NCBI GenBank assembly: GCA_004321925.1
Contig: SCQH01000061.1
Span: 1-34,652 of the forward strand
Reading direction: 5' to 3'
Origin: Nitrospirota bacterium
GTDB lineage: Bacteria > Nitrospirota > Thermodesulfovibrionia > Thermodesulfovibrionales > UBA6898
Length of the DNA stretch: 34,652 nucleotides
Made by a program: the position numbers and the translations under genes. Below are positions 13,805 to 31,613 of the stretch, in pieces (the stretch's first letter is position 1; each line of letters begins with the position of its first letter). The notes beneath the pieces were generated by a model. The model worked only from the letters and a program-made list of their open reading frames with translations. It was not told the DNA's origin and did no database searches.

Positions 13805-15007
13805 ATGATTGGGACAGATATCTTCCCGGCTGGAAGGAACGCGGGCAAGGCAGTTCTCTTCCTCTGCTTCTTTATCTTTTCTTCGTATCAGGACATTTCG
13901 GCCGGGAATGGATTGCCCGAAAAATACCGGCCCCTGAAAGTTTCAGAGGGGATCGCCCAGGACCCCGGCAGGGTCTCCTGGCATCCCGACAGCAACAGGC
14001 TCGCCTATGTTGCCGGGGCAGTGCATATATATGATATGCAGACCAAAGAGCAACGGACCGTGCATGTGGACAGTCCATATTATGCGGCCTGGGGAAAGGG
14101 AGATGACCTGTTCATCCTCTACCGGGAGGATGGCAGTAAAGCCTTATGCCGGGTCGATGGCCGGGGGCAGGGACTAAAAAAGATATCCCTTGCCATTGAA
14201 CCTGATGCGGTATTTCCGGTTAAGGATGGCTCGCAACTGCTGCTGCTTTCAGTGAGAGTGTTTGCCCGGGCTTTATGGACGGATTATCATTACGGCCTCT
14301 ACCTCTATGACCTGAGGACAGGTTCAACAAAGAAGATCCATGAAGCAACGAACAATCTTTCCCTCCGAAAACTGAGACCTGAGGACCTGAAAGGCCTGAT
14401 ACAGCCCTCGATGAACCCGTTTGATGCCACTGCCCTGGTCCTCGAATCTGTCAGGCCCCCGAATGCTCCATCCTACCTGAAGATAATGCATCTCGATTAT
14501 ATTACGGGCAAGGCTGAGGCAGTCGGTCGCCTGAACAGCAAGAGCCTTTCTGTGCCTTTCAGCAGCTCACCTGACGGCAGGAGGTTTGCTTTTACGGACG
14601 AGAGCGGCCGCCTTAAGATATACGATCACAACGGCGGGGTGTCGGACAGCGGCTTTGATATACAGGGCCGGCTGCCCGCATGGAACCCCGCAGGCAGCCA
14701 GATATATTTCGGGGGATATGTTGTCGGAAGCAGCGCCGGCGGAGAACCGGAGTTATTGCTTCCGGGAGGGGCTGCGAGCCTTGCAGTCTGGTCGCCTGAC
14801 GGCAGGAAAATGGCGCTTGTCACCGGAGACGGGCTTTGGCTGCTTGATAATTTCATACCGTCGTTCCTCCCTCCGGACAGGGTTCCTGACAGGTCTCTGT
14901 CAGATAAGATAGTTCTCTTAAAGGAGCTTCTCGCTGAAGGCCTTATTACAGACCGTGACTATAGGGAGAGATATGAAAAACTCGTAAAGGGGAGAAGGGG
15001 GCCATAA
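13805..15007 (+). CDS. secreted TolB/WD40-like beta-propeller protein with SHOCT-like tail
   Basis: 400 residues. A hydrophobic stretch at about 17-30 (AVLFLCFFIFSS) acts as a signal peptide or anchor. Propeller-type blades carry PD40 motifs: SWHPDSNRLAYVAG, SSSPDGRRFAFTDESG, then AWNPAGSQIYFGGYV and VWSPDGRKMALVTGDG. The last 40 residues (KIVLLKELLAEGLITDRDYR, then ERYEKLVKG) form a SHOCT-like helical hairpin, a short oligomerisation motif. It lies 12 bases after the EmrA gene, and its stop overlaps the cytochrome start by one base (TAATG). No ribosome site is clear. The role is unknown; a periplasmic scaffold or binding partner for the cytochrome is an inference from gene coupling. Confidence 0.7.
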   Translation: MIGTDIFPAGRNAGKAVLFLCFFIFSSYQDISAGNGLPEKYRPLKVSEGIAQDPGRVSWHPDSNRLAYVAGAVHIYDMQTKEQRTVHVDSPYYAAWGKGDDLFILYREDGSKALCRVDGRGQGLKKISLAIEPDAVFPVKDGSQLLLLSVRVFARALWTDYHYGLYLYDLRTGSTKKIHEATNNLSLRKLRPEDLKGLIQPSMNPFDATALVLESVRPPNAPSYLKIMHLDYITGKAEAVGRLNSKSLSVPFSSSPDGRRFAFTDESGRLKIYDHNGGVSDSGFDIQGRLPAWNPAGSQIYFGGYVVGSSAGGEPELLLPGGAASLAVWSPDGRKMALVTGDGLWLLDNFIPSFLPPDRVPDRSLSDKIVLLKELLAEGLITDRDYRERYEKLVKGRRGP

Positions 15008-16332
15008 TGTTACGCCTGTATGTTTCGCTGATGGTGTTCTGCTCATTATATCTATCCGGCGTATGCGGCATCTCTTTCGCCAGCGCAGAAGACGTATGTC
15101 TCGGATGCCATGAAAAGAAGACCCCCGGGATTGTGAACCACTGGAAAGAGAGCGCCCACTTTAAGAAACAGGTGGGTTGTGCAGACTGCCACGGCAGCGA
15201 TATCGAGGCCGGTCATAAGCGGGAGGCGGTGGTAGACGCCGCAAAGTGCGGGACCTGCCACAAAAAGACTTTTGACGAGCACAGCCTGAGCAGGCATTCC
15301 AAAGGGCTCAGGACAGGGCAGGGTTGCACCCGGAACATGGCAGCCACTGACGAGCAGAAGAAAAGCTGTTCCTTCTGCCATGCCCCCGGTTCGACAAAGC
15401 CCTTTGATGAAACGGAATGCGCCATGTTCCTCGCCCAGAGCAAAGACATGCAGGCGCATGGCTGCAGTTCCTGCCACAGGGTGGAGGACCGGTGCGACAC
15501 CTGTCATACAAAGCACGGCACTGATCTTTCCCTGGCAAGGATGCCGGGAACCTGCGGGACCTGTCATATGGGGCCTGACCACGCGCAGTATGAAATGTGG
15601 GACGCATCTTCCCACGGTGTTATATTTCGCGCACGGGGCGAAAAGGACGGACCGTCCTGTGTGACCTGCCATATGAACAGAGGCTCGCATAATGTCAGCA
15701 GGGGGATCGCCACAGGCCTCCCGGAGGCCCTGCCTGAGATGAAGAAACAGGAGAGGGACTATATGGTGAGCATCTGCTCGGGCTGTCATACCTCCGGGTT
15801 TTCGGCCCGGAACCTTGCCGGGGCCGACAACATAGAACAGCAGAGCAGAAAGATCGTCGAAGAGGCCAGGGTCCTGGTGGAGGAACTCTACCGGGAAGAT
15901 CTCCTGTTTCCCCCGCCGTCGGAAAGGCCAAGCCACCCGCTCTTCGGGAAGAAATTCGTTATTGGGCCGCATATGTTGTATGAGAACCTCTCGCTTTCCG
16001 AAAGCCTTTTTTTCAGGATGAAGCAGTTCTATTACATGAACACGGTCAAAGGGGCTTTTCACCAGAACCCTGACTATACCCACTGGTACGGCAATGCGCC
16101 CCTGAAACTGGCCCTGTCAGAACTGAAAAGCGAAGCCGCTTCACTGCGGCGGGCCAGGAACCTGAAAGACCGGCTCGACAACCTGCTCCTTGCGCCGGAG
16201 TCCCCCAGGGATGACACAGGCGATGTACGGAAGGCCTTGCGAGAGCTCAGGGAGCGGATGCTAAGGGGAGCTATCTCCGGGAAAGAATACGACGACCTCA
16301 AAAAGAAGGCCCTGGACGAAAAAGGGTTGTAG
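15007..16332 (+). CDS. multiheme cytochrome c, hydroxylamine oxidoreductase-like, nine CXXCH
   Basis: 441 residues with a Sec signal peptide (ending FASA, residue 27). Nine CXXCH heme sites start at Cys31, 58, 81, 121, 153, 163, 183, 218 and 257, so it should be a periplasmic nine-heme protein. The order and the blocks CDTCHTKHG, CGTCHMGPDHAQYEMW and KGAFHQNPDYTHWYG are hallmarks of the octaheme HAO family, which interconverts hydroxylamine, nitrite, ammonia or related N and S compounds. The count of nine is one more than the usual eight. The tail (406-441, LRERMLRGAISGKEYDDLKK) is SHOCT-like, as in the gene before it. I cannot tell whether a catalytic Tyr crosslink exists, so direction and substrate are open. 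It sits between EmrA- and EmrB-type genes. Confidence 0.85.
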   Translation: MLRLYVSLMVFCSLYLSGVCGISFASAEDVCLGCHEKKTPGIVNHWKESAHFKKQVGCADCHGSDIEAGHKREAVVDAAKCGTCHKKTFDEHSLSRHSKGLRTGQGCTRNMAATDEQKKSCSFCHAPGSTKPFDETECAMFLAQSKDMQAHGCSSCHRVEDRCDTCHTKHGTDLSLARMPGTCGTCHMGPDHAQYEMWDASSHGVIFRARGEKDGPSCVTCHMNRGSHNVSRGIATGLPEALPEMKKQERDYMVSICSGCHTSGFSARNLAGADNIEQQSRKIVEEARVLVEELYREDLLFPPPSERPSHPLFGKKFVIGPHMLYENLSLSESLFFRMKQFYYMNTVKGAFHQNPDYTHWYGNAPLKLALSELKSEAASLRRARNLKDRLDNLLLAPESPRDDTGDVRKALRELRERMLRGAISGKEYDDLKKKALDEKGL

Positions 16333-17892
16333 ATGCAGGGCGAGACTGATACAGCCGGCAGTATGAGCAAGTGGATTGTGGCCCTGACCGTGATGCTCCC
16401 GACGCTCATCGAGATCGTGGACACCTCGGTCGTGAACGTCTCGCTCGACAGCATCAGGGGGAGCCTCTCGGCCGGCATCGACGAGTCCACCTGGACCATT
16501 ACCTCATACCTCGTCTCAAATGCGATCATCATCCCGATGACCGGCTGGCTCAGCAGGGTCTTTGGCAGGAAGCGGTACCTCATCTTTTCGATCATGCTCT
16601 TCACCTTCAGTTCCTTTCTCTGCGGCATATCCTGGAACCTTCAGAGCCTGGTCTTCTTCAGGATACTCCAGGGCATGGGCGGCGGTGCGCTCCAGCCCAT
16701 ATCCCAGTCGATCCTGCTTGAGACCTTTCCGCGAAAGCAGCACGGCATGGCGATGGCCATCTTTGGTGTTGGCATCATGTTCGGTCCGATCATCGGGCCC
16801 CTGCTGGGCGGCTGGATAACCGACAATTGGTCCTGGCACTGGATCTTCTTCATCAACATCCCGATCGGGGTACTCTCCGTCCTTATGGCGATGCTCTTTA
16901 TCGTGGACCCTCCCTACATGAAACGGATGAGCATGAAGATAGACTACTGGGGGCTTGCCCTGCTGGCGCTCGGTCTTGGCTGCCTGCAGATCGTCCTGGA
17001 CAAGGGGCAGATGGAAGACTGGTTCTCCTCGAACTTCATCACGACCATGACCCTGATATCCGTGGTCTCCCTGGCCCTGTTCCTGTATGTCGAGAGCGTC
17101 GTCGAGCACCCGATCATGAACCTCAAGACCTTCAAGAATATCTCCTTCAGCACGGGAAATATCGTCATGTTCTTTGCCTTTTTCAACCTCTTCGGCAGCA
17201 TCGTCCTGCTGCCTGTTTATCTGCAGACCCTTATGGGCTATACCTCGACGCTCTCGGGGATGGTGCTCGGTCCGGGCGGGATCGCCACGCTCATCGCGAT
17301 GCCCGTGGCAGGAAGGCTGATCACAAAGATGAACCCCAAGGCCCTGCTTGGCTTCGGCATTGTGGTGTCGGCATACTCCACGTATCTTATGTCCCAGTTC
17401 AGCCTGCAGGCGGACTTTAATACGGTCATATGGCCGAGGATAGTCCTGGGTATCGGCATGGGTTTTCTCTTTATCCCTCTGACGACCCTGACCATGTCGA
17501 GCATCCGGAAAGAGGATATGGGTAATGCCTCGGCGATCTATAATCTTTTGAGGAACCTTGGCGGAAGTTTCGGGGTTGCCTTCGTCACCACGATGATCGC
17601 CCGGCGGGCCCAGTTCCATCAGGTCAGACTTGCCGACCACCTGACCCCTTTTGACCGGAGCTTCCAGTCAGCCTCCCAGGGCGCGGCACAGTATCTGCAG
17701 CTTCAGGGGATGGACAGCGTCTCTGCGGGTCAGGGCGGGCTCGGGGCCCTGTACGGTCAGATGATAAAACAGGCGGCGATGCTTTCGTTCAATGACGCCT
17801 TCCATCTGCTGAGCGTTTTTATGATCTGTATCCTTCCCCTGGTGCTCCTGATGAGGGCCGGGAAGGGTGAGGCCCCGGCCGGTATGCACTGA
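16333..17892 (+). CDS. emrB: EmrB/QacA-type MFS drug:proton antiporter (DHA2, 14 TM)
   Basis: 519 residues starting on the base after the cytochrome stop. The pattern is that of 14-TM DHA2 transporters: a motif near DTSVVNVSLDSIRGSL, motif A GWLSRVFGRKRYLIF, motif B/C region FRILQGMGGGALQPISQSIL, and GIMFGPIIGPLLGGWITDNW. The C-terminal half continues with hydrophobic helices to the end. EmrB exports hydrophobic compounds or uncouplers in exchange for protons and passes them through EmrA and TolC, both encoded upstream in the same run. It is the last gene of the operon and is followed by a perfect hairpin. Confidence 0.93.
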   Translation: MQGETDTAGSMSKWIVALTVMLPTLIEIVDTSVVNVSLDSIRGSLSAGIDESTWTITSYLVSNAIIIPMTGWLSRVFGRKRYLIFSIMLFTFSSFLCGISWNLQSLVFFRILQGMGGGALQPISQSILLETFPRKQHGMAMAIFGVGIMFGPIIGPLLGGWITDNWSWHWIFFINIPIGVLSVLMAMLFIVDPPYMKRMSMKIDYWGLALLALGLGCLQIVLDKGQMEDWFSSNFITTMTLISVVSLALFLYVESVVEHPIMNLKTFKNISFSTGNIVMFFAFFNLFGSIVLLPVYLQTLMGYTSTLSGMVLGPGGIATLIAMPVAGRLITKMNPKALLGFGIVVSAYSTYLMSQFSLQADFNTVIWPRIVLGIGMGFLFIPLTTLTMSSIRKEDMGNASAIYNLLRNLGGSFGVAFVTTMIARRAQFHQVRLADHLTPFDRSFQSASQGAAQYLQLQGMDSVSAGQGGLGALYGQMIKQAAMLSFNDAFHLLSVFMICILPLVLLMRAGKGEAPAGMH

Positions 17893-17999: not shown

Positions 18000-19028
18000 C
18001 TACAGGGGCTCCCAGTATTTCACCGGCATGTCCTTGGCGAGCTTAATGGCCCCGTCCGAGCCTGCAAACAGGGGGTCCTGCACACAGGTCACGTTGCAGG
18101 GCCCGTATTCCTTCAGCGCATCCTGCAGGTATTCCTTGATGCCCCTGATGAGGCTGCCGCCGCCGGCCAGGACGATGTTGTTCTTTATCTTGACCTGGAA
18201 TTCCGGATCGAACCGCGCGATCATCTCGATCGTTGTCTCGGTCAGGGCAGGCAGGATGCTTTCACAGGCCCGCTTTATCTCATTTTTGATATCATGCATG
18301 ACCGGCTTGCCGGCAACAGGTATCTCGACCCGGATGTCCTCGTCGAGGTCCCTGACAAAGCTGTACTGCTCCTTGAACTGGCGGACCATGTTCTTGTTGA
18401 ACCGGGAGCCAGGATATTTTTCGATCAGATAGCTGTAGAGCTGGTCGTCGATATAGTCACCCGCGGTCAGGATCGTCTTCTGGTCATCCTCCGACGGGAT
18501 GGTGCCGTGCATGATGCAGAAGTCGGTCGTGCCTGCCCCGATGTCTATCACGAGTGAATTATTCAGCAGGTTCATGCCATAGGCCACGGCAAAGGGTTCT
18601 GTAACGACCATCAGGGAATGGACGAAGTCTGTCACGGCCTTCCTGATGGCGAGCTTATTGACCTTGAGCGTATCGGCAGGCACCCCGACCACCGCGAATA
18701 TCTTCTGATCGGGTGCGGGCTCTGCCAGTTCGATGAGATACTTTATGATATCCTTGACCGCCTCTTCGTTCCTGCTGATGCCCTCCTTGATGACCCCGTG
18801 CTCAAGGGGCCGGCAGAGGTCCAGGGAAAGCCTGTTCTGAAGGGCCTCGGCGCCGAAGAGGACCGGCTTGCCAACGACCTGTGCCGCGATGAAGTCCTTC
18901 GGCCATCCAACATAGCTTTCGATCCACTGGCGCGTACCGTTGCTGGCGGATATGGAACTCCGTGAGGTGCCGAGGTCTATCCCTGCGTAAAGGATATTCT
19001 CATTTTTCTGTATGTCGTCTTGCTTCAT
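18000..19028 (-). CDS. MamK-like bacterial actin
   Basis: 342 residues, the length of MamK. The actin ATPase core is complete: phosphate-1 GIDLGTSRSS (16-25), the hydrolysis Glu144 in VVTEPFAVAYG, phosphate-2 VIDIGAGTTD (160-169, Asp162) and the adenosine loop NIVLAGGGSLIRG. Compared from memory with Magnetospirillum MamK, blocks such as VGWPKD, AVVGVPA, LNNSLVIDIGAGTTDFC, GTIPSEDDQKT, KEQYSFV and a C-terminal YWEPL agree closely. Glu144 and Asp162 sit one residue from MamK's catalytic Glu143 and Asp161. MamK forms filaments that align magnetosomes. AAGGAG 9 bases before the ATG supports the start. The gene overlaps the amidase gene upstream by 29 bases. No other magnetosome gene is visible, so the cell role may differ. 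Confidence 0.85.
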   Translation of the reverse strand: MKQDDIQKNENILYAGIDLGTSRSSISASNGTRQWIESYVGWPKDFIAAQVVGKPVLFGAEALQNRLSLDLCRPLEHGVIKEGISRNEEAVKDIIKYLIELAEPAPDQKIFAVVGVPADTLKVNKLAIRKAVTDFVHSLMVVTEPFAVAYGMNLLNNSLVIDIGAGTTDFCIMHGTIPSEDDQKTILTAGDYIDDQLYSYLIEKYPGSRFNKNMVRQFKEQYSFVRDLDEDIRVEIPVAGKPVMHDIKNEIKRACESILPALTETTIEMIARFDPEFQVKIKNNIVLAGGGSLIRGIKEYLQDALKEYGPCNVTCVQDPLFAGSDGAIKLAKDMPVKYWEPL

Positions 19029-20052
19029 GGGTCACGTCTCCTTTATTGAGATATTCTAAGATTCCTAATTCCAGATAACGGGCGATGTTCTCCCTGTGGG
19101 ATTCAGTATTAAGCTGGACCTCCTCTTCCTTGCTGCTGAGGCAGGATACCTCAGCCAGAACAGAGGGGACATCCACCCCGAGCAGAACGACAAAGGGGGC
19201 GCGCTTGACCCCGAAGTTATATGCGGTGCCGGTCTCCTTCCTCATATTCATGAAGAGCTTCTTTTGTATGGAGGCGGCAAATTCCTTCGACTCCTGGAGC
19301 TTCATCGTATCGCCGATCTTCCCGATGATCTCTCTGAAATCGCTGTTGCCGTAGCTTGATTCTGCATTCTCCTGCTCTGCCAGCTTCAGTATCTTGGGGT
19401 CCGACGAAGGCCCGAAATAATAGGTCTCGATGATATTGATCGGCCGGGACGGCAGGTAGTTGAGGTGTATCGAGAGGAAGAGGTCGGCCTTGCTGGCCTT
19501 GGCCATCTCGACCCTCCGGTTAAGCGGCACGGTAACGTCAGAGTCGCGGGTCAGCACGATATTGTAATTGCCGTATTTCTTCAGCCGGTCCCTGAGCCGT
19601 TTGGCAATATCAAGGGCGATGTCCTTTTCTTTGGTCCCCATCTCACCCTTGGTGCCGGTGTCGTTGCCGCCATGCCCCGGGTCGATCATGATCGTTCTGA
19701 CACCGAGGCCGAATATCCTGCTGATCGGCATGCCGGGTGAACTGATAAAGGACTTGTAATTGGACGGACCCTCCTCCGAGACCCCGCCGGCTGACGGCTG
19801 GTAGGCCTTCTGGAACGTGTTTGCCGTTATCTGGCTGCGCTGCTGCATGGGCGTCGGGACAAAGCTTTCCTGGAACATGAGGATCATCAGGGATATGAGG
19901 AAGGGCAGCATGAGCCTCTTCGCAGAATAAAAGCGCGTCTTGTAGATGACCGCAGGACCCTTCCCGACGATCCTGAGGTTTTCCTCATAGACACCGCGCA
20001 GGATATCTTTCCTGACCCGCTGCTCCTTATTCCATGGAAAAAAGCGTTTCAT
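19000..20052 (-). CDS. membrane-anchored N-acetylmuramoyl-L-alanine amidase (Amidase_3)
   Basis: 350 residues. A basic cytoplasmic N-terminus of about 46 residues precedes one TM helix (about 47-61, LMLPFLISLMILMF), then a linker to residue 115. The amidase_3 domain (115-340) keeps all zinc and catalytic residues: His127 in IDPGHGGND, Glu142 in TKEKDIAL, His196 in FLSIHLNY and catalytic Glu301 in VLAEVSCLS. The enzyme cleaves the bond between MurNAc and L-Ala in peptidoglycan, typically to split septa or remodel the wall. Most AmiA/B/C enzymes are freely secreted with an AMIN domain; this one is a type II membrane protein without AMIN. It is translated just before, and overlaps, the MamK-like gene, suggesting filament-guided wall cutting (inference). 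Confidence 0.88.
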   Translation of the reverse strand: MKRFFPWNKEQRVRKDILRGVYEENLRIVGKGPAVIYKTRFYSAKRLMLPFLISLMILMFQESFVPTPMQQRSQITANTFQKAYQPSAGGVSEEGPSNYKSFISSPGMPISRIFGLGVRTIMIDPGHGGNDTGTKGEMGTKEKDIALDIAKRLRDRLKKYGNYNIVLTRDSDVTVPLNRRVEMAKASKADLFLSIHLNYLPSRPINIIETYYFGPSSDPKILKLAEQENAESSYGNSDFREIIGKIGDTMKLQESKEFAASIQKKLFMNMRKETGTAYNFGVKRAPFVVLLGVDVPSVLAEVSCLSSKEEEVQLNTESHRENIARYLELGILEYLNKGDVTHEARRHTEK

Positions 20053-20191: not shown

Positions 20192-21094
20192 ATGAAAATA
20201 CTGCTGGCGGTGGACGGGTCAGAATACTCCGAGGAGGCTGCCAGAGCGCTGACCTGCATGGATCTGACCGAGCAGGACGAGATCATGCTCGTCCATGTGG
20301 TCAGTTGGGTGCCGTTCCAGTATGACGCTGCGTCCTACTATGAAAATCTGAAGCAGATCAAGCAGGACGTGGCCCCGAGGATCATCGACTCGGCCCTCAG
20401 GCTGCTCACCCCGGTAAAGGCCAGGATCAGTACTGCGATCATCGACGGTTCGCCTGACCGGTATATCGCGGAGACTGCGGCTGAGGCCGGCATGGACCTT
20501 ATTGTCATGGGCGCGCGGGGGGTCAAGGGCATGAAGTCCGTCCTTATCGGCAGTGTCACCAAGGCGGTGGCCCTTCATGCCTCAAAACCGGTGCTGGTCA
20601 TCAAGCCCGGATTCTGCGGCCGGGCAGCCGGCGGGAAGATGCGGGTGATCCTGGCGGTCGACGGGTCTGAATCATCGGAGCAGGCGGCAATGATGCTTGC
20701 CGCAATGCCGCTCGGTAATGCCGTCGAGATAACCATATTCAATGCCATCTGGTCTGACTTCTCCGATATCCCGGAGCGGTTCGTTGCCGAGATAAACGAC
20801 CGGGTCAAGGACGTCATCGCCGAAAACAGGACCCAGGAGTTCAAGGACTCCGAGCAGGTCCTTGAAAAGGCCCAACAATTTCTCAGGGACAGGTTCAGCA
20901 GCATTTCCCTGGTCTCCCGGGTCGGCGACCCTTCGCAGGAAATAATGAAGATCGCAGAGGTCAGGGACGCCAGCATGATCGTGGCAGGCTGCCGGGGGCT
21001 CAGGGGCATACCCGGCATGATGGGCAGCGTCTCGAGGAATATCCTGACCCATGCCGGCTGTTCCGTCCTCATCGGAAGGACCTGCACCGGATAG
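20192..21094 (+). CDS. tandem universal stress protein (two UspA domains)
   Basis: 300 residues made of two UspA domains. Domain 1 (1-145) begins MKILLAVDGSEYSEEAARAL and ends with the ATP loop GARGVKGMKSVLIGS, an exact G-2X-G-9X-G(S) pattern. Domain 2 (about 150-300) begins MRVILAVDGSESSEQAAMML and has GCRGLRGIPGMMGS, one residue short of that pattern, so ATP binding may be weaker there. Tandem Usp proteins act in the cytoplasm in stress, energy or redox adaptation, usually by binding ATP or sensing AMP. It is divergent from the amidase gene with its own promoter-like sequence, and 89 bases before EttA. Confidence 0.92.
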   Translation: MKILLAVDGSEYSEEAARALTCMDLTEQDEIMLVHVVSWVPFQYDAASYYENLKQIKQDVAPRIIDSALRLLTPVKARISTAIIDGSPDRYIAETAAEAGMDLIVMGARGVKGMKSVLIGSVTKAVALHASKPVLVIKPGFCGRAAGGKMRVILAVDGSESSEQAAMMLAAMPLGNAVEITIFNAIWSDFSDIPERFVAEINDRVKDVIAENRTQEFKDSEQVLEKAQQFLRDRFSSISLVSRVGDPSQEIMKIAEVRDASMIVAGCRGLRGIPGMMGSVSRNILTHAGCSVLIGRTCTG

Positions 21095-30336: not shown

Positions 30337-31491
30337 TCAACTGGTTTTGATTTTCGAGCATGATTGAGCGTTCTCCGGTAGTCTGAAATGCTTGTTGCAA
30401 AGGCATTTTTTTGCGAAAAGAGTAACCGAGAGAATCTGTAGCAACGTATAAAGAGATGCATCGAGGTTGAGTTTTTTCTTGATGATGGCGATGAGCACAT
30501 ACACGGAGACTGCGGTCCAGATTTGGGTCTTCACGGCGTTTTCCGATGTACCATAGAATCGTTTGATGCGAAGATGCTGCTTGATCCATTTGAAGAACAG
30601 CTCGATCTGCCATCGGCTTTTGTAGAGAGCAGCGATTGTGAGTGCTGGCAAGGTAGTATTGTTGGTTAGAAAAATCAGCGTCTTGTCTCTGTCGGTGTCT
30701 TTGAAGCGGATACGACGCAAATGCTCGGGGTAATGACAATGACTGTAGTAACCGTTCAACATGATGCTCTGGTCGCAGATAATGCCAGAGGACCGGTCGA
30801 CTGGGGCAGAGTATACGCGCCTTGCGTTGAGGTTCGACTTTGTGCGGGTCACGAAGAAACTGCCCGCCGTGTGCAAAGCATAGAGGCGAGCGAAGTCCGT
30901 GTATGCCCGGTCCATAATGTAGAACGCTCCAGGTTCCGGGATAAGCATGTCGAGCATATTGATGTCGTGCCACTTGCCGTCTGTAATATGAATGAAGCTG
31001 GGTATTGCACCTCTGAGATCCAGAAGTGTATGAACTTTGACTGCTGCCTTGGCCTCGCGGAACGGAGCCCATGGAAATACAGAAAGACAAAGGTCGATAG
31101 TCGTGGAGTCCAGTGCGTAAGCCGTATTGGAGAGGTCGAGTCCGAGATCCTCGTCGGCATAGAGCCCTCTTGCTTGGGCAATCAGTTTCTGTGCAAAATC
31201 GGCATAGATGCGCCAGTCGCGGGATTCGTTTGCGTCGGCCAGAGTCGAGCGAGAAATCGCTCCGCTGATGCCCATATGGTAGAGCTTCGACGCCTGAGCC
31301 GACAGGCATGCCTCTATATCGCGAAGACTCTCCCGATACGTCAACTGGGCGAATGCCAGGATACGAAACTGCTCCGTGCAACGGAACGTGCGAATACGAT
31401 GGTCGCCTCCATAACGAGCGACGATACGATGAAATGTGCTCCAAGGAAGAAAATCCATGATCTGGGCAAATAGCGTTTTGCCGGTATACAT
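30337..31491 (-). CDS. IS4-family transposase (DUF4372 N-terminal domain)
   Basis: 384 residues from the ATG at 31491. The frame is open to 31512, but GGAGGT lies 4 bases before the ATG at 31491, and family members I recall begin with the same TGKTLFAQxMDFLPW block. A DUF4372-type N-terminal domain (about 1-75) precedes the DDE catalytic core: the first Asp in YALDSTTIDL, the second in FYIMDRAYTD, and Glu in the Y-(2)-R-(3)-E motif YKSRWQIELFFKWIKQHL. All three are present and there is no frameshift, so the element may still be active. The gene fills the element almost from end to end. Confidence 0.92.
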   Translation of the reverse strand: MYTGKTLFAQIMDFLPWSTFHRIVARYGGDHRIRTFRCTEQFRILAFAQLTYRESLRDIEACLSAQASKLYHMGISGAISRSTLADANESRDWRIYADFAQKLIAQARGLYADEDLGLDLSNTAYALDSTTIDLCLSVFPWAPFREAKAAVKVHTLLDLRGAIPSFIHITDGKWHDINMLDMLIPEPGAFYIMDRAYTDFARLYALHTAGSFFVTRTKSNLNARRVYSAPVDRSSGIICDQSIMLNGYYSHCHYPEHLRRIRFKDTDRDKTLIFLTNNTTLPALTIAALYKSRWQIELFFKWIKQHLRIKRFYGTSENAVKTQIWTAVSVYVLIAIIKKKLNLDASLYTLLQILSVTLFAKKCLCNKHFRLPENAQSCSKIKTS

Positions 31492-31613
31492 CGCCACCTC
31501 CGGAAATATCAATTCCGAAAGGATTGCCCATCAGCCGATTTGTATTCAAGTCGACACCATGCAAAATATCGTAAAAGTGCTTATCTATCATATAGTTTTA
31601 AGTGCTCGCCTGT

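Follow-up and report, generated by a model that had tools for sequence, protein, structure and literature searches.

MamK is usually treated as a signature of the magnetosome, and the gene immediately upstream of mamK encodes MamJ, the adaptor between magnetosomes and MamK, or, in MV-1, the MamJ counterpart (PMC10653835). That MamK-related actins also occur in non-magnetotactic bacteria is already known in principle from BeeR of Verrucomicrobiota (PMC11929497). Elsewhere among the bacterial actins, MreBH of B. subtilis interacts with the autolysin LytE and positions it (PMC3817527). Here we describe a MamK-family actin encoded together with a membrane-anchored cell-wall amidase in a 34,652-nt stretch of DNA from a Nitrospirota bacterium (contig SCQH01000061.1; the whole stretch is called the window below), and we trace both genes, and a short motif in the amidase tail, across related genomes.

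A MamK-family actin in an amidase operon

Judged by its sequence, the open reading frame (ATG at 19028, stop at 18000) is a real gene for a MamK-family actin; the preliminary description had its coordinates and 342-residue length right, and its strand is minus. The protein scores 407.6 bits against the NCBIfam MamK model (NF040964; cut-off 400, E 3.5e-122, 329/335 positions) and falls below the cut-offs of the models for BeeR (NF053558, 223.9 versus 530 bits), MreB (TIGR00904, 72.2 versus 365.75) and FtsA (TIGR01174, 27.4 versus 175.85). A PDB search returned AMB-1 MamK at E 2.5e-91, BeeR at 9e-43 and MreB at 2e-14. AMB-1 MamK, the best solved relative, aligns with the window actin nearly end to end and without gaps, pairing its catalytic Glu143 and Asp161 with Glu144 and Asp162, and its C-terminal QYWRQ has KYWEPL as its counterpart. 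The NCBIfam and PDB alignments thus bear out the block-by-block likeness to MamK, with these two residues and the YW C-terminus, that had been noticed earlier, and the protein may putatively undergo ATP-dependent polymerisation. Codon-position GC of the gene is 0.57/0.35/0.77. Many metagenome-assembled genomes of Nitrospirota have orthologues whose proteins are 76-88% identical to the window actin. For orthologues dN is 0.075-0.15 and synonymous sites are saturated or nearly so, and the gene is therefore under purifying selection.

Table 1. Features of the window and their coordinates.
Feature	Position	Strand	Basis
EmrB-type MFS	16333-17892	+	
MamK-family actin, 342 aa	18000..19028	-	NCBIfam NF040964, PDB 5jyg/5ljv best, clade support 99
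Asp162 codon of MamK-family actin	18543-18545	-	
Glu144 codon of MamK-family actin	18597-18599	-	
Membrane-anchored N-acetylmuramoyl-L-alanine amidase, 350 aa, first operon gene	19000..20052	-	Amidase_3, full-length relatives
Actin Shine-Dalgarno stretch within amidase 3' end, ATAAAGGAGACGTGACCC	19029..19046	-	
Amidase_3 catalytic domain, residues 121-331, predicted periplasmic	19060..19692	-	
Predicted single transmembrane helix of amidase, about residues 45-63	19864..19920	-	Hydropathy, charge
Amidase cytoplasmic tail motif, residues 14-31 (RKDILRGVYEENLRIVGK), proposed MamK docking motif	19960..20013	-	
Universal stress protein	20192-21094	+	

The amidase gene lies directly upstream of the actin gene and overlaps it by 29 nt. 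Its product matches Pfam Amidase_3 at 144.8 bits (gathering score 27), and H127, E142, H196 and E301, the zinc and catalytic residues by the roles known for the family, are invariant in 27 amidase sequences. A net charge of +9 ahead of the transmembrane helix predicts that the tail is inside and the catalytic domain outside; in an AF2 model (mean pLDDT 60, tail helix <50) a helix at 45-61 is present at low confidence.

The association of the two genes is strict. A search of the class for full-length relatives of the amidase (E below 1e-85) picks out 43 genomes, exactly those that carry a window-type MamK, and the tailed amidase is always directly upstream of that actin; the remaining amidases of the class genomes match mainly in the catalytic domain and have no tail. 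Among the relatives the overlap is usually 4-35 nt, and the actin Shine-Dalgarno stretch inside the amidase gene is conserved as ATAAAGGAGA in most. The same adjacency is found in Aminicenantes and, beyond the phylum, in Acidobacteriota, where a MamK-like gene is present in 41 of the 396 genomes sampled and every locus examined (30/30) has an amidase gene immediately ahead of the actin gene, in the same orientation. The preliminary description was correct about the neighbours (an amidase, an MFS pump and a stress protein), yet its label of orphan is misleading: the actin gene is part of a conserved operon that occurs in two phyla. Its suggestion that a MamK-type filament has another job, such as one at the wall, is well supported by this strict pairing.

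A third gene often follows. Of 56 Nitrospirota and Aminicenantes loci, some of them from one and the same genome, 45 have next to the actin gene, on its downstream side, a gene whose product combines a receiver domain with a transmembrane helix and a C-terminal SPOR domain. Acidobacteriota vary at this position, with SPOR, PilZ or unrelated genes, so we do not claim the SPOR gene as universal; three of these loci (L140, L145 and L161) have PilZ in place of SPOR, hinting at c-di-GMP control. No SPOR gene adjoins the actin in the window. The window genome (G000) encodes a full-length receiver-SPOR homologue with 32% identity on contig C49, and relatives of it are also present in genomes without a window-type actin; the SPOR link therefore looks looser than that to the amidase. 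On that contig the gene lies, by eye, near MglA GTPase-like and roadblock/MglB-like ORFs (L222, G000:C49:14000-21500). SPOR domains bind septal glycan strands that amidases have stripped, hence the module points to the septal wall, which we infer to be its site of action.

Other parts of the window show further features. Between 7634 and 17892 (+), TetR, MacA/MacB-like, TolC-like and EmrA/EmrB-like genes stand together with a multihaem cytochrome (15007-16332, +) that is hydrazine-dehydrogenase-like (93 bits, cut-off 900). An IS4-type transposase at 30337-31512 (-) is, by eye, the sole clear mobile element in the window.

Two MamK types and the distribution of magnetosome genes

Does this actin serve a magnetosome? 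The window contains no mam or mad genes, as the preliminary description had said of the surroundings of the actin. The window genome (3.2 Mb, 100% complete) encodes one MamK and one MreB (contig C113). Magnetosome genes in the same genome, which would mark MamK in the functional sense, were sought as MamM, MamP and magnetochrome, and none had a match; the magnetochrome search says little alone, since its controls gave no match either, and for this reason MamM and MamP were searched class-wide with magnetotactic members as positive controls. From the wider mam-gene search of the genome proposed in the preliminary description, MamM and MamP were thus the genes looked for, and neither was found.

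Of 230 genomes surveyed in the class, 66 have a MamK above the cut-off, and these split by score into 23 genomes with a magnetosome-type protein (455 bits or more) and 43 with a window-type protein (403-441 bits); none of the 230 has both. The MamM cut-off is passed in 22 genomes and a MamP match is present in 20, all of them magnetosome-type genomes or fragmentary relatives of these, and 0/43 window-type genomes have either. Within the magnetosome type, MamM is present in 20/23; the others are G029 and G030 (mamK near a contig end) and G083 (56% complete). A Geobacteraceae locus (L040) with MamM above the cut-off was set aside as magnetotactic.

We built a tree of 84 actins that included MreB and BeeR rows, with FtsA and ParM left out. 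One clade (support 99) unites the amidase-linked MamKs of Nitrospirota, Aminicenantes and Acidobacteriota. The Nitrospirota magnetosome MamKs stand apart from it (support 100), and BeeR branches outside it; the exact order relative to AMB-1 MamK is unsure, with a long branch. MreB rows split off at 100%, so that the branching inside MreB which had been named beforehand as evidence against the MamK assignment is not seen. Two Acidobacteriota actin-amidase pairs (L132, L133) nest among Nitrospirota rows, so the pair has probably moved from one phylum to another.

These data bear on two explanations that would tie the gene to magnetosomes. The preliminary description had offered a magnetotactic host with a second mamK copy away from its magnetosome island, and the protein does pass the NCBIfam MamK cut-off and has a magnetotactic relative (G153) in the same family as the window organism. 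That relative, however, has a magnetosome-type MamK only, the complete window genome has a single MamK and none of the magnetosome genes sought, its 43-genome group has no MamM or MamP, and the window actin sits in a separate clade. We rejected a second copy on gene content and on the lack of any genome with both MamK types, and consider it next to impossible. Another thought is that the gene is a leftover of an ancestral magnetosome cluster, functionless or recruited late; magnetotactic and other lines do both lie within Nitrospirota, and all their MamKs are relatives. Strong purifying selection on the actin speaks against this, as does the failure of the amidase-linked clade to nest in the Nitrospirota magnetosome clade, and since the amidase pairing is found in Acidobacteriota too, an old pair is suggested rather than a recent local loss; we find a leftover highly doubtful. 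As far as gene content and phylogeny can tell, the window actin has nothing to do with magnetosomes.

The tail motif as a candidate docking element

In the amidase alignment the catalytic domain and the tail motif ILRGVYEENLRIxG are kept, and the transmembrane segment and linker adjacent to the motif are variable. The consensus is R-x-x-I-L-[RK]-G-V-Y-E-[DE]-N-L-x-I-x-G, in which N25, L26 and G30 are invariant and I17, L18, Y22 and E23 nearly so, and the motif is predicted to be helical and amphipathic. A profile of the tail finds a single significant site per genome, the amidase, and no significant site in genomes without a window-type actin.

The same motif recurs beside other MamK-type actins. 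In Planctomycetota, 130 of the 343 genomes sampled (38%) encode a MamK-like actin, often in two copies, and none of the first 20 loci read has an amidase beside it. The gene directly upstream of the actin, whose product is often coiled-coil-looking, carries the motif near its C-terminus in 45/62 ORFs, against 0/50 downstream and 1/62 antisense ORFs (p 1.6e-17). Against shuffles, a matrix built solely from the amidase tails of Nitrospirota recognises 29/62 of these upstream proteins at p<0.05 and 17/62 at p<0.01. At Nitrospirota magnetosome loci, 11 of the 14 genes immediately upstream of mamK encode the motif at the C-terminus, versus 8/261 other ORFs (p 1.8e-12); the gene upstream of the Geobacteraceae mamK (L040) lacks it. 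Matches to a regular expression depend on its wording, as with the Acidobacteriota amidase tails, of which 17/30 match and more do so by eye. Broadly, the motif takes the form hydrophobic pair-x-x-[IV]-aromatic/aliphatic-x-x-N-[LV]-x-[LI]-R-like.

Its position varies with topology: it is N-terminal where the C-terminus lies outside the membrane and C-terminal in proteins without a predicted transmembrane segment, a placement that fits a cytoplasmic role. In one locus (L034) an in-frame read-through joins motif, linker and MamK, and its AF2 model gives the motif helix a pLDDT of 92 and a MamK fold whose best match is the MamK filament 5ljv (Z 41.8, rmsd 1.6 over 325 residues); the alignment used was made without motif fragments, since these aligned inside full MamK rows.

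A magnetotactic relative (L075; G085:C39, 8533-9252 and 9364-10443) encodes a second MamK at a distance from its MamM gene, and the gene upstream of this MamK encodes CheW with the motif at its C-terminus, a possible link between filament and chemotaxis. Planctomycetota loci L162-L221 have varied coiled-coil partners, and those of L165 and L168 carry the motif more than once. By eye the motif resembles WH2 actin-binding motifs; we do not claim kinship.

The shared short tail probably hooks the amidase, and the partners of other actins, to the filament. On balance we favour the broader view that MamK-family actins of at least three phyla, the Nitrospirota magnetosome MamKs included, share an upstream-encoded docking motif and make up a general cargo-positioning family.

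A proposed mechanism and its relation to known systems

We think there is a good chance that a MamK-type filament docks and positions the cell-wall amidase through an adaptor motif common to the MamK family. The two-gene module would combine an ATP-dependent cytoplasmic filament with a single-pass membrane amidase whose catalytic domain is periplasmic. The short amphipathic motif in the cytoplasmic tail would dock on the filament, and the filament would gather or position the enzyme, setting where peptidoglycan stem peptides are cut; the receiver-TM-SPOR protein, the usual third partner, would tie the module to the septal wall. Other family members would hold other cargo by the motif, such as a magnetosome-cluster protein, coiled-coil proteins or CheW.

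Docking and positioning are steps that we infer, and the pair might instead be co-expressed without contact, the tail being a generic membrane-surface or dimerisation helix. The predicted amphipathic helix would suit such a role, the motif is on short tails in nearly all cases, and the tail might anchor to the membrane or serve another partner. We nevertheless regard this as unlikely: unrelated proteins, which have in common only that they are encoded directly upstream of a MamK-type actin, show the same hydrophobic pairs, Asn and Leu, also where no transmembrane segment is predicted. The place of action is a separate matter. The filament could position a non-septal site (side-wall elongation, a pole or a chemosensory cluster) at which the amidase opens the wall, and the receiver domain in the third gene, the MglA/MglB-like polarity genes that by eye adjoin the receiver-SPOR homologue of the window genome, and the CheW gene adjoining the second MamK of the magnetotactic relative are all in keeping with this. 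SPOR plus amidase is, however, the usual septal pairing, and a non-septal site seems to us possible but not the reading to prefer.

These findings have consequences for how MamK is read. The family is wider than the magnetosome, spanning Planctomycetota as well as genomes of Nitrospirota and Acidobacteriota in which no magnetosome genes were detected; mamK alone is therefore no marker of magnetotaxis, and the NCBI MamK label covers proteins of other function. If the shared motif is what we propose, the magnetosome would be only one cargo beside a wall amidase, coiled-coil proteins and CheW, and the motif would offer a testable explanation of cargo holding by MamK where MamJ is lacking. The amidase pair also suggests that bacterial actins of a second type guide the cutting of the wall. 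An open-literature search, with most subscription journals outside it, returned no paper naming both MamK and the tailed amidase, nor did the amidase-linked clade, its operon or the shared motif appear in the literature searched.

Among described systems, magnetosome MamK of Magnetospirillum and of magnetotactic Nitrospirota has the fold, ATPase residues and C-terminal YW motif in common with the window actin, at about 40-45% identity in the case of the latter. It too has an adaptor gene directly upstream, which in magnetotactic Nitrospirota ends in the tail motif; unlike it, the window actin has no magnetosome genes, has a wall-amidase partner and belongs to a separate, well-supported clade. 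BeeR has a long N-terminal extension, which the window actin lacks, and no known partner, whereas the window actin is paired with an amidase. The MamJ and MV-1 adaptors resemble the window amidase as cargo adaptors encoded directly upstream of mamK, but their cargo is the magnetosome and we saw no sequence relation. The general amidases of the class genomes match the catalytic domain only and are without the tail of the window amidase. In MreBH-LytE, as proposed for the window pair, a bacterial actin joins a cell-wall hydrolase and positions it; there the actin is MreB-type and the autolysin secreted, whereas here a MamK-type actin and a bitopic, tailed amidase share one operon. In AmiC-type periplasmic amidases and FtsN-type SPOR proteins, Amidase_3 and SPOR domains work at the septum, as we propose for this module.
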